Positions 1-51,968 of a stretch of DNA of 64,000 nucleotides are shown here, piece after piece. How positions within the stretch are numbered: position 1 is the stretch's first letter; the number at the start of each line of letters is the position of its first letter. The notes beneath the pieces are model-generated. The model saw only the letters and a program-made list of their open reading frames with translations, searched no databases and was not told the origin of the DNA. The translations under genes and the position numbers were made by a program. Origin of the DNA: Solidesulfovibrio carbinoliphilus subsp. oakridgensis (GTDB lineage Bacteria > Desulfobacterota > Desulfovibrionia > Desulfovibrionales > Desulfovibrionaceae); assembly GCF_000177215.2 (NCBI RefSeq), contig NZ_CM001368.1, forward strand, positions 2,555,001-2,619,000. Reading direction: 5' to 3'.

Positions 1-284
1 AGCCTTGGTAGGCCATTACCCCACCAACAAGCTAATGGGACGCGGACTCATCCAACAGCGACAGCTTGCAAGCAGAGGCCGCCTTTCAATCAACCGAAAT
101 TGATTCGTATCCGGTATTAGCGGCAGTTTCCCGCCGTTATCCCGAACAGTTGGGCAGATGATCCACGCGTTACTCACCCGTGCGCCGCTCTACTCAGGGA
201 CCGAAGCCCCCTTTCTCGCACGACTTGCATGTGTTAAGCACGCCGCCAGCGTTCAATCTGAGCCAGGATCAAACTCTCCAGTTT
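1..284 (-). rRNA. rrs: 16S ribosomal RNA, 5' end (partial)
   Basis: Read on the minus strand, the sequence carries the universal bacterial 16S 5' region, including AGAGTTTGATCCTGGCTCAG beginning at 277, followed by ATTGAACGCTGGCGGCG. By comparison with the E. coli numbering, the mature 5' end lies near 284. The gene runs off the left edge of the window, so only about the first 280 nt are present. It is transcribed away from the rest of the window and lies downstream of a BoxA-like site and five tandem promoters. Confidence 0.97.
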
Positions 285-47996: not shown

Positions 47997-48737
47997 ATGG
48001 CTGCCATCGATAGCTTGACGCTCTATTCCAACGCGACGTCCGTGACCGGCCTTTCCACCCCGGCGGTCGGCAAAACCGCAAGCGACGGTGCGGGCGCCGG
48101 GTCCGGCGGTTCCGCCGGAGCGGGGGACACGGTCAGCATTTCCGAGGAGGGCAAGGCCCTGTCCTACGCCCTGTCCGCCGGCGCCACCGCCAGCAACGCC
48201 GGCACGGCCGCCGCCGCGCTCCTCGGCGCGGCCGGCGCTTCCGGCGCCACCACCGCGTCCGGCACGGCGGCCGCGGCGACCAGCACGGACGCCGCCGGCA
48301 CGGCCGATGCGGCCAACGCCACCGACGCCACGGACGCCACCGGCACGACAACGGCTACGGATTCCGCCTCCGCAGCCGCCTCGTCCACCACCGCGACCGG
48401 TACGGCGGCCGGGACCTCGGCCCAGGCGTCCGGCTCGGGCGGGGCCAAGGGCGGCGGTGGCGCCGCGGGGTCCGGATCCGCCGACAGCGACGACGACTCC
48501 GACACCACGGCCGACGAGATCAAGGAGCAGATCCAGCAGGTCCAGCAGCAGATCGAAAAGCTCGACAGCCAGAGCCTGTCCGAGGACGAGAAGGAGTCCC
48601 AGAAGACCCTGCTCGAAAACGAACTGGCCGAACTGCAGGCCCAATACGCCGAGGCGCTGTCAAACGAGAGCTCCTCCGGCTCGACCGGCGGCACCGGCGG
48701 CAACACCGCGGCCACCACCTACGGCGGCGCGGGCTGA
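47997..48737 (+). CDS. Ala/Thr/Ser/Gly-rich low-complexity protein with coiled coil
   Basis: A 246-residue protein. The start is certain from AAAGGAGGGTGCC before the ATG. An N-terminal segment has DTVSISEEGKALSYALSA, a motif that recurs in short Desulfovibrio proteins of unknown role. Residues 60-165 are low-complexity Ala/Thr/Ser/Gly with Asp. About 168-222 form a coiled coil (EIKEQIQQVQQQIEKL, LENELAELQAQYAEAL). There is no signal peptide. A filament-related or secreted protein is possible, but this is unsupported. Confidence 0.72.
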   Translation: MAAIDSLTLYSNATSVTGLSTPAVGKTASDGAGAGSGGSAGAGDTVSISEEGKALSYALSAGATASNAGTAAAALLGAAGASGATTASGTAAAATSTDAAGTADAANATDATDATGTTTATDSASAAASSTTATGTAAGTSAQASGSGGAKGGGGAAGSGSADSDDDSDTTADEIKEQIQQVQQQIEKLDSQSLSEDEKESQKTLLENELAELQAQYAEALSNESSSGSTGGTGGNTAATTYGGAG

Positions 48738-48840
48738 TGCCGCAACGCCTTCCTCCCGCCCGTCCGTCGGGCCGGCATCACCGCCGCGCCGGGGACCTGT
48801 CCCGGCCCCTCCGTGACGCCGGCCCGGCCGCCGCCACCGG

Positions 48841-48869
48841 TTGACAAGGACGGCGGACAGGCATAAGGC
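48841..48869 (+). promoter_or_regulatory. candidate promoter upstream of the MgtE_N/Nramp operon
   Basis: Perfect -35 TTGACA, 17 bp, TAAGGC on the plus strand. It lies about 510 bp before the MgtE_N start, leaving a long leader that contains two short reading frames and several GC hairpins. Rfam-type metal riboswitches (M-box, yybP-ykoY) cannot be confirmed by eye. Confidence 0.5.
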
Positions 48870-48901
48870 CCAAGCAACACGCAACCCCTTTTGAGGAAAA
48901 A

Positions 48902-48964
48902 ATGGACGAGCCGTACAGTAGTTGTTGCACGAACCAAACGTTTTTGCACTCTCGCTTGAGATAA
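48902..48964 (+). CDS. possible 20-residue leader peptide
   Basis: A short frame MDEPYSSCCTNQTFLHSRLR with GAGG five bases before the ATG, about 30 nt after the candidate promoter. Two adjacent Cys are notable. It may be a regulatory upstream peptide for the metal transport operon. Coding status is uncertain. Confidence 0.3.
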   Translation: MDEPYSSCCTNQTFLHSRLR

Positions 48965-49065
48965 CGCCTCCTGCCGTCACGGCCGCCGTGGCGCGCCCCT
49001 CCCCTCGCGGGAACGGGCCGCCTCCGCCAGCCCCGCCGGTCAGGCGGCGGTAAAGGAGGCGCCCG

Positions 49066-49239
49066 ATGAACACTCCCTTCATCCGGTCCCGAACATTCGC
49101 CTCGCGGCCCTTGGCCAACCTCTGCGGCAGCCTTGCCGTGGCCCTTCTGTTCCCCTGCTCCCGGCGTCTTTGCGCCGCCACTTCCGGCGCGGCAAAGGAA
49201 CCCCCCTCACCAAGCCCCCTGCCCTCCGCGCAGGGCTGA
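49066..49239 (+). CDS. possible 57-residue leader or exported peptide
   Basis: A frame with AAAGGAGG seven bases before its ATG, a basic start, a hydrophobic LCGSLAVALLFPC stretch resembling a short signal peptide and a Pro/Ser-rich tail. It lies in the long leader before the MgtE_N gene. The strong ribosome binding site supports translation, but no homologue is recognised. Confidence 0.35.
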   Translation: MNTPFIRSRTFASRPLANLCGSLAVALLFPCSRRLCAATSGAAKEPPSPSPLPSAQG

Positions 49240-49383
49240 CCGGCGGCCCAGGCCGCCCGTCTTTCGCCTTTCCGTTTCCGATCCGACGCGTCGCCCGGGG
49301 GTCCTCCCCGCCGACGCAAGCCCGCACAGGTCCCACGGCCCGCCGGTCCCGGCGGCCGCGTCCTGTGCCAGGGAGGCTTGGCC

Positions 49384-50643
49384 ATGAGCGAACTTTACGT
49401 CAGTTCCGTGCTGGGGCGGCCGGTCATCGATCCGGCCGGCGTCGAACTCGGCCGCCTGGAGGACCTGCGCCTTTTGCCGGGCGATTCCCTGCCCCTGGTG
49501 TCCGGCCTTTTCATCCGCCGGGGCGGCGAGCGCCGTTTCGTGCCCTGGAGCGCGGTCAACCTTTTCACGCCCGTGGTGGTTTCGGCCAGCCCCGACCGCT
49601 TTGGCGACGCCGAGGCCGTCGCCGACGACGGCCCGGACATAAGGCTTCGCCGCGACGTCCTGGACCGCCAGATCGTGGACGTGGACGGGGCCAAGGTGGT
49701 CCGGGTCAACGACCTGAAGCTGCGCACGCGCGGTTCGAGGCTCTTCGTGGCCGCCGTGGACGTGGGCCTTCGCGGCGTGGCCCGGCGGCTCGGCCAGCTG
49801 CGCTTCTGGACCTGGCTGGCCCGGGTCTTTGGCGTCACCCTGCCGTCCCGGGAGATCGACTGGCGCTTCGTGGCCCAGCTCGACCACAACGCCGACCGCC
49901 TGACCCTGACCGTGGCCCGCGAACGCTTAACCGACCTCCACCCGGCCGATATCGCCGAAATCCTGGCCCAGCTCCCCCACAAGGAAGTCGGCACGGTCCT
50001 CGGCTCCCTTGACGTCGAAACCGTGGGCGAGGCCATAAGCGAGCTCGATCCCGAACTCGGCGGCCGGGTCATCAGCCAGCTCGACAGCGAGCAGGCTTCC
50101 GACATCCTCGAAGAGATGGACCCCCACGAGGCCGCCGACCTGCTCGGCGACCTGCCCGAGGAAAAGGCTCGTGAACTCCTCGACCTCATGGACGAGGAGG
50201 ACGCCGAGATGGTCCAGGAACTCCTCGAACACGAGGAGGACACGGCCGGCGGCCTCATGAACAACCTCTTCGCCTTCGTGCCCCCGGCCATGACCGCCGA
50301 GGAGGCCCTGAACTACCTGCGCCTGGTCGGCGCGGAGATCGACAACATCTATTATATCTACGTGATCCGGGCCGACGAGACCCCCCTTGGCGTGGTCACC
50401 CTCAAGCGGCTCCTGCTGGCTCCGCCAAAGACCCCCGTGGCCGAGATCATGACCGTCGGGCTCAAGGCCGTCACCGTCACCGCCCCGCCCCAGGAAATCA
50501 TGGAGATCATCGCCAAGTACAACCTGCTGGCCGTGCCGGTCCTGAACAACGCCGGGCACATGGCCGGCATCGTGCCGGCCGACGACGTCCTGGAACTGTT
50601 CCTGCCCGAATCCGTCACCCGAAAGCGTTTCGCCGCGCACTAA
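49384..50643 (+). CDS. soluble MgtE_N-CBS protein with PRC-barrel N-terminus
   Basis: A 419-residue protein. Residues 1-160 hold PRC-barrel-like beta repeats (SSVLGRPVIDPAGVELGRLEDL; RDVLDRQIVDVDGAKVVRVNDL). Residues 165-285 are the MgtE N-terminal superhelix (LHPADIAEILAQLP, EMDPHEAADLLGDLP, MDEEDAEMVQELLEHEEDTAGGLM). Residues 290-415 are a CBS pair. The five-helix MgtE channel domain is absent: the protein ends at the CBS pair. AGGGAGG precedes the ATG. It is followed by an Nramp-type transporter 29 bp downstream. It is inferred to sense Mg2+ and regulate that transporter. Confidence 0.85.
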   Translation: MSELYVSSVLGRPVIDPAGVELGRLEDLRLLPGDSLPLVSGLFIRRGGERRFVPWSAVNLFTPVVVSASPDRFGDAEAVADDGPDIRLRRDVLDRQIVDVDGAKVVRVNDLKLRTRGSRLFVAAVDVGLRGVARRLGQLRFWTWLARVFGVTLPSREIDWRFVAQLDHNADRLTLTVARERLTDLHPADIAEILAQLPHKEVGTVLGSLDVETVGEAISELDPELGGRVISQLDSEQASDILEEMDPHEAADLLGDLPEEKARELLDLMDEEDAEMVQELLEHEEDTAGGLMNNLFAFVPPAMTAEEALNYLRLVGAEIDNIYYIYVIRADETPLGVVTLKRLLLAPPKTPVAEIMTVGLKAVTVTAPPQEIMEIIAKYNLLAVPVLNNAGHMAGIVPADDVLELFLPESVTRKRFAAH

Positions 50644-50672
50644 GCCCAATCTTCCTTCGCGAGGCATCCGAC

Positions 50673-51968
50673 ATGACCGCAGCGACCAAGGCCCCACCGG
50701 CCCGCAGGCTCTCACGCAAAAACATCCTCCTGTTCCTGGCCCTCCTCGGACCGGGCATCATCACGGCCAACGTGGACAACGACGCCGGCGGCATCACCAC
50801 CTATTCCCTGGCCGGGGCCCAATACGGCTATTCGCTCCTGTGGATGCTCCTCCCGACGACCATCTCCCTGGTGGTGGTCCAGGAGATGTGCGCCCGCATG
50901 GGCGCGGTCACGGGCAAGGGCCTCTCGGACCTCATCCGCGAGTCCTTTGGCCTGCGCACCACGTTTTACATCATGATCGCCCTGTTTCTGACCAACCTCG
51001 GCAACACGGTCTCCGAGTTCGCGGGCATCGCCGCCGGCATGGAGATCTTCGGCATCTCCAAGTTCATTTCCGTGCCCATCGCCGCCCTCCTCGTCTGGCT
51101 TTTGATCGTCAAGGGCTCCTACCGGATCGTGGAGCGGGTGTTCCTCGTCGCCTGCGTGGTCTACCTCGCCTATCCCCTGGCCGCCTTTTTCGCGGACGTG
51201 CCCTGGGGCGAGGTGGCCCTGGCCGCGGTCACGCCGAGCTTCCGGGCCGACGGCGGCTACGTGGCCATGATGATCGGCCTGGTCGGCACGACCATCGCCC
51301 CGTGGATGCAGTTCTACCAGCAGGCGGCCGTGGTGGAGAAGGGGATCACGGCCGAGAAGTACGGCTACACGCGGCTCGACGTCATTGTCGGCTGCGTCTT
51401 TGCCGTGGCCGTGGCCTTGTTCATCGTCGTGGCCTGCGCCGCCTCGATCCATGTCCAGGGGCTGACCGTGGAGACCGCCGCGGACGCGGCCCGGGCCCTG
51501 GAACCGCTGGTCGGCCGGTACGCCTCCTGGCTTTTCGCGGTCGGGCTCATCAACGCCTCGCTTTTCGCCGCCGGCGTCCTGCCGCTGTCCACGGCCTACT
51601 ACATCTGCGAGGCCATGGGCTGGGAGCTCGGCATCGACAAGGATTTCCGCAAGGCCCCGCAGTTCTTCTGGCTTTTCACCATAAGCATCATCCTCGGGGC
51701 ACTTACCATCCTCGTGCCCGGCATGCCGCTTCTGGCGGTCATGTACCTTTCCCAGGTCGTAAACGGCGTGGTCCTGCCCTTTGTGCTCATCCTCATGCTG
51801 CTTTTGATCAACGACAAGCGGCTCATGGGCGCCTACGTCAACGGCCCGGCCTTCAACACCGTGGCCTGGGTGACGGTGGCGGCGCTGATCGGCCTGACCG
51901 CGCTCATGACCCTGGACACGGTCTGGCCCGGGGCCATCGGCCGGCTGGTCGGGCTGGTGGCGGGCTAA
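50673..51968 (+). CDS. Nramp-family divalent metal transporter (probable NRMT / Mg2+ type)
   Basis: A 431-residue protein with 11 or so helices of the LeuT/Nramp fold. The first helix has NVDNDAGG where Mn/Fe Nramps have DPGN, so the Asp is kept and the Asn is Ala. The sixth helix has TTIAPWMQ where canonical proteins have the IMPH motif, so the soft-metal-selecting Met is Ala and His is Trp. Loss of the Met is a hallmark of Nramp-related magnesium transporters. It sits 29 bp after the MgtE_N-CBS gene. Confidence 0.85.
   Translation: MTAATKAPPARRLSRKNILLFLALLGPGIITANVDNDAGGITTYSLAGAQYGYSLLWMLLPTTISLVVVQEMCARMGAVTGKGLSDLIRESFGLRTTFYIMIALFLTNLGNTVSEFAGIAAGMEIFGISKFISVPIAALLVWLLIVKGSYRIVERVFLVACVVYLAYPLAAFFADVPWGEVALAAVTPSFRADGGYVAMMIGLVGTTIAPWMQFYQQAAVVEKGITAEKYGYTRLDVIVGCVFAVAVALFIVVACAASIHVQGLTVETAADAARALEPLVGRYASWLFAVGLINASLFAAGVLPLSTAYYICEAMGWELGIDKDFRKAPQFFWLFTISIILGALTILVPGMPLLAVMYLSQVVNGVVLPFVLILMLLLINDKRLMGAYVNGPAFNTVAWVTVAALIGLTALMTLDTVWPGAIGRLVGLVAG

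Follow-up and report, generated by a model that had tools for sequence, protein, structure and literature searches.

A free-standing MgtE-type sensor protein paired with an NRMT-clade Nramp transporter in Solidesulfovibrio: a probable two-gene Mg2+ uptake unit

Magnesium channels of the MgtE family carry their own cytosolic sensor. Here we describe a chromosomal locus of Solidesulfovibrio carbinoliphilus subsp. oakridgensis in which such a sensor is encoded as a separate protein (gene 1), next to an Nramp-fold transporter of the NRMT clade (gene 2). We consider it probable that the two form an nrmT-type Mg2+ uptake unit, the product of gene 1 acting as a Mg2+-sensing partner that would damp uptake. 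The locus is a rediscovery: both the pairing and the gating hypothesis have been in print since 2014 (Shin et al., PMC4072509). That study found most nrmT genes to adjoin a gene homologous to the N-terminal cytoplasmic domain of MgtE, speculated on feedback regulation or metal chaperoning and stated the role of the fragment as open. New here are the phylum-wide co-occurrence of the two genes in both directions, the variety of their gene orders and the existence of naturally separated pairs.

Results

The window, that is, the whole 64,000-nucleotide stretch of DNA analysed, carries the two genes on one strand of the chromosome as open frames of 419 and 431 aa (Table 1). Gene 1 had originally been predicted to encode a PRC barrel, an MgtE_N superhelix and a CBS pair without the MgtE channel, followed 29 bp downstream by a gene of the Nramp fold; the open frames and Pfam agree with this description throughout. 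The MgtE membrane domain (PF01769) is absent from gene 1 according to Pfam, and from the whole genome of the organism. Against the NCBIfam MgtE model, gene 1 scores 149.8 bits, below the cut-off of 232.75, and matches in the cytosolic part only. Among solved structures it comes closest to the cytosolic domains of MgtE (2yvy, E 6.6e-31, residues 177-410). The same domain is the best Foldseek match (1.3e-18) of a structure model of gene 1 alone, whose second half, MgtE_N and CBS, is good enough to use, with block means mostly near 80, against less than 50 for residues 1-181. Among six partner proteins taken from different groups, all possess MgtE_N and CBS, and PRC is over the cut-off in five and just under it in the sixth. 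At its edge the window also includes the 5' part of a 16S rRNA gene (1-284, minus strand).

Table 1. Features of the locus, and magnesium riboswitches found before related units
Feature	Position in window	Strand	Remarks
Gene 1, free-standing PRC/MgtE_N/CBS-pair protein, 419 aa	49384..50643	+	without membrane channel domain
PRC-barrel domain, aa 1-60 (best-scoring stretch)	49384..49563	+	Pfam PF05239, 3.6e-8 for the protein
MgtE_N superhelix, aa 185-286	49936..50241	+	Pfam MgtE_N, 7.7e-27
CBS pair, about aa 290-406, start approximate	50251..50601	+	Pfam CBS, 6.4e-13
Intergenic gap between genes 1 and 2, 29 bases	50644..50672	+	
Gene 2, NRMT-clade Nramp-fold transporter, 431 aa	50673..51968	+	Pfam Nramp, 1.5e-103
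Helix-1 metal-site motif DxxG (D37 A38 G39 G40)	50781..50792	+	motif as defined in PMC8806188
Helix-6 metal-site motif TxxA (T206 T207 I208 A209), then P210 W211	51288..51299	+	motif as defined in PMC8806188
M-box before sensor, sensor-first units			L061, L073, L137, L138, L141, L142, L143, L148, L171
M-box before Nramp, Nramp-first units			L115, L119, L179, L183

The Mg2+ ligands of Thermus thermophilus MgtE, as named in PMC5882242, served as the reference for the sensor site. Numbering was set by D91 and D95 on the DDLAD stretch, and E59, D226, D247 and D250 then fell as expected. Gene 1 is acidic at four of the six positions compared: E216 and D252 align with E59 and D95, the Mg7 and Mg6 ligands, and D401 and E404 with D247 and D250. 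The non-acidic positions are H248, at D91, and N380, at D226. Across the 82 core partners defined below, with gaps left out, acidic residues occupy the positions of E59 (79/80), D95 (80/80) and D250 (71/80), and those of D91 (44/80), D247 (40/80) and D226 (11/81). The positions of D91, D226 and D250 are never acidic in the nine outer-clade rows, and that of D226 is non-acidic in six of seven full MgtE rows. Judged by these residues, the gene 1 product may sense Mg2+.

For gene 2, the best match among solved structures is EleNRMT (7qia) at 397 bits, the next distinct sequence, a MntH, reaching 109 bits. A tree with a MntH outgroup, in which EleNRMT was not among the sequences, is in keeping with this. 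The NRMT signature, as given by Ramanadane et al. 2022 (PMC8806188), combines a helix-1 DxxG with a helix-6 TxxA/T; EleNRMT itself carries both Mg2+ and Mn2+, independently of H+ (PMC8806188). Gene 2 carries the DxxG-TxxA motif, and DAGG and APW stand in it in place of the canonical DPGN and MPH of Nramp/MntH. The metal site does differ from that of Mn/Fe Nramps, as predicted. The helix-6 substitution had been read correctly as IAPW for IMPH; in helix 1 the proposed DNDA gives way to DAGG (D37-G40) as the true counterpart of DPGN. Two CorA genes are also present in the genome, as is another Nramp, at C1:3523839-3525053, whose motif is the canonical DPGN/MPH. Relatives of gene 2 were not found on viral contigs. 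The assignment of gene 2 as a Mg2+ transporter is well supported by the EleNRMT match and the site motif, together with Mg2+ riboswitches on sister pairs (see below).

We surveyed the phylum in an evenly drawn sample of 395 genomes. Gene 2 was matched at E<=1e-40 in 91 of them, 82 belonging to a core clade (identity to gene 2 of 50% or more) and nine having more distant matches only. Partners of the core NRMTs were located by direct search and by an ORF scan of fetched stretches, whose flanks measured about 1.5-3 kb, or less where a contig ended. All 82 core-NRMT genomes possess the sensor gene, 70 within the fetched stretch (conserved adjacency in relatives being a check proposed at the outset) and 12 on another contig. 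Thus, the linkage between gene 1 and gene 2 is far beyond chance. The partner lies upstream on the same strand in 56 core genomes and downstream in convergent orientation in 14; the stretch contains none in 11 and was unfetched in one. The convergent partners of G325 and G381 are pieces at a contig end, the sensor of G381 being present just as this fragment. Contig ends explain the separation of sensor and NRMT well in G334, G164 and G174. We treat the two as separated in nine core genomes (eight of family f54, plus G097), whose fetched flanks hold no neighbour; for one of these, G162, the NRMT is split over two contigs and the flanks checked were those of the partner alone.

The reverse search matched gene 1 at E<=1e-40 in 99 genomes, ten of which align only at about residues 178-410 and were set aside as full MgtE. 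Free-standing sensors occur in the other 89: 81 core genomes, six of the outer clade and two (G079 and G297) in which gene 2 finds no match at E<=1e-40. An NRMT-type Nramp was found by search in 87 of the 89, and in the last two an Nramp piece adjoins the sensor; that of G297 shows DNDAGG, and that of G079, at a contig end, stops before the metal site. The co-occurrence holds in both directions (82/82 and 89/89) and supports the two-gene unit originally proposed.

The partner accompanies Nramps with NDAGG and T-[TS]-I-[AT]-PW sites, either within the stretch or at another place in the genome, in both the core and outer clades; this group includes a few Nramps with one or two variant residues. 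No partner occurs in any fetched stretch around Nramps with DPGN/MPH, DDDP/ISPY or other sites, two other Nramps of the organism's own genome among them. Exceptions are an NDAGA-type Nramp in a genome with no sensor match at E<=1e-3 (G009) and two plasmid loci (L172, L182) with an NDAG-type Nramp and no partner in the stretch. Family f54, where the partner is separated, has a TxxT site. Two single cases may be recorded here: in genome G408 (L121) the NRMT spans two open frames, owing to decay or sequencing error, although the adjoining sensor gene is intact, and in G005 (L132:1879-4533) two tandem sensor-type genes stand behind one Nramp.

Gene order differs between the clades. The sensor is upstream, or convergent in the 14 genomes mentioned above (families f28 and f19), in the core clade, and downstream on the same strand in the outer clade. 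Trees built by a quick maximum-likelihood method from 69 transporters and from 65 partners, with SH-aLRT support only and with long branches flagged, have several clades in common: the window's group with f47, f26 and f104; f28/f19; f54; f16; and the outer group, where the pair of a Citrobacter plasmid clusters with those of two genomes of the window's own family. The trees conflict over the outer clade, which falls outside the core for transporters and inside the core for partners (SH-aLRT 99). A constraint that keeps the core partners together was not rejected (AU p 0.19), whereas one that places the outer transporters with the matching core group was (p 1.3e-26). A second recruitment of the partner in the outer clade is possible from these trees, and would fit the swapped gene order. 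Among 148 loci scanned, none was flagged for an open frame that matches both genes, as a natural fusion would. In four Solidesulfovibrio/Desulfovibrio relatives the two genes share a reading frame and are separated by a single TAG. A joined-chain model of the pair, with TAG read as Gly and 10 alignment rows, reached a mean pLDDT of 42.6 and a pTM of 0.30 and is uninformative on contact.

Of the 77 places scanned, 13 have an M-box aptamer, a Mg2+ riboswitch, ahead of the unit, and both same-strand orders are represented among them (Table 1). This proportion is a floor, since loci with short flanks and separated partners were part of the set. The 77 places derive from 79 entries, L140 being entered twice and L018 and L135 being the same place. 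Five of the 13, with transporters that share 69-72% identity with gene 2, belong to family codes f47, f26 and f104 of the window's group; the sixth locus scanned from these families (L144) has no M-box, and the score of the sister clade is thus 5/6. The window contains no M-box at the gathering score, nor any in 48500-49450 when matches as weak as E=5 are admitted, and M-boxes are likewise absent from the window's nearest relatives (L001-L005, L131 and L135). Two further RNA observations were made: a PtaRNA1 match at 49379-49442 (25.6 bits) lies below the family's gathering score and was taken as chance, and a 6S RNA is situated just 3' of three M-box/sensor/NRMT units (L137:4737-4916, L138:3085-3260 and L141:2708-2887).

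Full MgtE (PF01769, E<=1e-3) is encoded in 232 of the 395 genomes and is rarer alongside NRMT, occurring in 12 of 82 core-NRMT genomes versus 220 of the 313 others (Fisher p 3.6e-20, a value that assumes independent genomes, which they are not). No overlap of MgtE and core NRMT is seen in 17 of the 25 family codes with core NRMT. It is as if the NRMT-sensor pair replaces full-length MgtE.

On plasmids, 18 places (H41-H58) cover at least 78% of gene 1, and an Nramp neighbours 16 of them according to annotation or matching record coordinates; among these 16 are five Rhodococcus records that resemble one another and three from S. clavuligerus. The plasmid matches to gene 2 listed here are 40 of 145 records. 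In an unannotated Nonomuraea place no Nramp was found in the stretch. On a Tsukamurella plasmid (L176:2992-4805) a PRC/MgtE_N/CBS gene overlaps a downstream DUF1003 gene by 4 bases, and no Nramp was found in the 3-kb flanks of the sensor. The DUF1003 protein is a possible second partner of the detached sensor; our literature search found no mention of DUF1003 together with MgtE. On plasmids of Citrobacter (L173:1-5686) and Cellulomonas (L178:1-4203), genes for an ArsR-type regulator and a heavy-metal P-type ATPase lie divergent to an Nramp-then-sensor pair, which hints at a metal other than Mg2+ for some pairs. Separately, an MgtC/SapB family gene is found near the pair on plasmids of Mycolicibacterium (L171) and Leifsonia (L183).

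Discussion

Taken together, our findings go some way towards the two-part Mg2+ transport unit of the original prediction: the Mg2+ half draws on the EleNRMT match, the motif and the M-boxes of sister pairs, and the two-gene half on co-occurrence. In the mechanism that we propose, gene 2 would be an NRMT-clade importer binding partly hydrated Mg2+ at its DxxG-TxxA site without proton coupling, a site that probably also takes Mn2+. Gene 1 would be its dedicated cytosolic partner, a detached MgtE N/CBS sensor with an added PRC barrel, most likely reading cytosolic Mg2+ through the N-CBS interface. At high Mg2+ it would damp uptake, doing for NRMT the same job that these domains do inside MgtE. 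Control of the transporter is the most likely role of the sensor. We infer the physical contact between gene 1 product and NRMT, the binding of Mg2+ by gene 1 and the direction of control.

The largely shared clades of the two gene trees count in favour of this reading. Counted against it are the lack of an M-box in the window, the non-acidic equivalents of D91 and D226, the nine separated core genomes, the absence of a fusion, the disagreement of the trees on where the outer clade joins and the uninformative pair model. Published experiments (PMC4072509) also weigh against it: the C. acetobutylicum NRMTs function in B. subtilis without the partner, and the Acidobacterium capsulatum transporter, which rescues the Mn2+ defect fully and the Mg2+ defect only in low-millimolar Mg2+, gained no further Mg2+ rescue from co-expression of its partner and looked like a Mn2+ importer. 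This co-expression test, the one published, is unfavourable or uninformative for sensor control.

Alternatively, gene 1 may encode an assembly, stability or delivery subunit, that is, a chaperone or scaffold of NRMT rather than a Mg2+-dependent gate. Such a role, which we judge rather unlikely, would suit a domain fold that is kept while the sensor ligands are kept just in part, as well as a partner retained even where it does not neighbour NRMT, and chaperone activity was named as an alternative by Shin et al. (PMC4072509). Yet the Mg6 Asp is invariant and the Mg7 position almost always acidic in the core rows (80/80 and 79/80), although both could be structural, and the partner-independent function of the C. 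acetobutylicum NRMTs (PMC4072509) speaks against this role too.

That the pair handles Mn2+ or another transition metal, with gene 1 responding to that ion, seems improbable. The Mn2+ import by the A. capsulatum transporter in B. subtilis (PMC4072509), the Mn2+ carried by EleNRMT (PMC8806188) and the heavy-metal P-type ATPase and ArsR-type regulator adjoining two related plasmid pairs would all accord with it. However, five of the six sister-clade pairs stand behind Mg2+ riboswitches, and the organism has its separate DPGN/MPH Nramp. Least probable of all is co-occurrence without direct interaction, both genes serving Mg2+ homeostasis and gene 1 acting on another target: the nine core genomes in which the genes are not neighbours and the Tsukamurella sensor beside DUF1003 would suit it, but each of the 89 free-standing sensors in the phylum sample is accompanied by an NRMT-type Nramp or by Nramp pieces, and the linkage persists across several gene orders.

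It is tempting to speculate, beyond the Mg2+-sensing partner that we favour for this locus, that the free-standing PRC-MgtE_N-CBS protein is a near-obligate, exchangeable subunit of Mg2+ control. We hold this idea only tentatively. Whatever the gene order or linkage, the sensor goes with NDAGG-type Nramps of the phylum sample in all 82 core genomes and in six outer-clade genomes with the motif, and it may have been recruited more than once, since the partner of the outer clade falls inside the core partners in a quick tree. In actinobacteria it adjoins a second membrane protein, DUF1003. If this were so, Mg2+ feedback would be a module passed among unrelated transporters and not the property of one channel family; and if gene 1 does gate NRMT, the sensor of a channel has been reused on a carrier-type fold. 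Papers after 2014 that take up the function of this MgtE-like neighbour of nrmT did not emerge from our literature search, and the word MgtE is absent from the available text of PMC9606685 and PMC12873925, both more recent Nramp studies. Clear test cases are available in the near-obligate pairing, in the variety of gene orders and in the pairs that are naturally separated.

Among known systems, the cytosolic domain of T. thermophilus MgtE (2yvy, 2yvx) has in common with the gene 1 product its N domain and CBS pair. Unlike that channel, the gene 1 product stops after the CBS pair, with no membrane domain and, in our own reading, no plug helix, and it has an additional PRC barrel. EleNRMT from Eggerthella lenta (PDB 7qia) is identical to gene 2 in its site residues, D-A-G-G and T-T-I-A-P-W; it is described as a transporter alone, a partner gene being undiscussed in the available portion of PMC8806188. 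Closest are the nrmT loci of Shin et al. (PMC4072509). Some of these have an M-box, whereas the window locus has none; the partner is split in C. acetobutylicum and intact in the window; and the PRC domain present in the window's partner goes unmentioned in the available portion of that account. Nevertheless, the families, the two-gene arrangement and the feedback hypothesis are shared with the locus described here.
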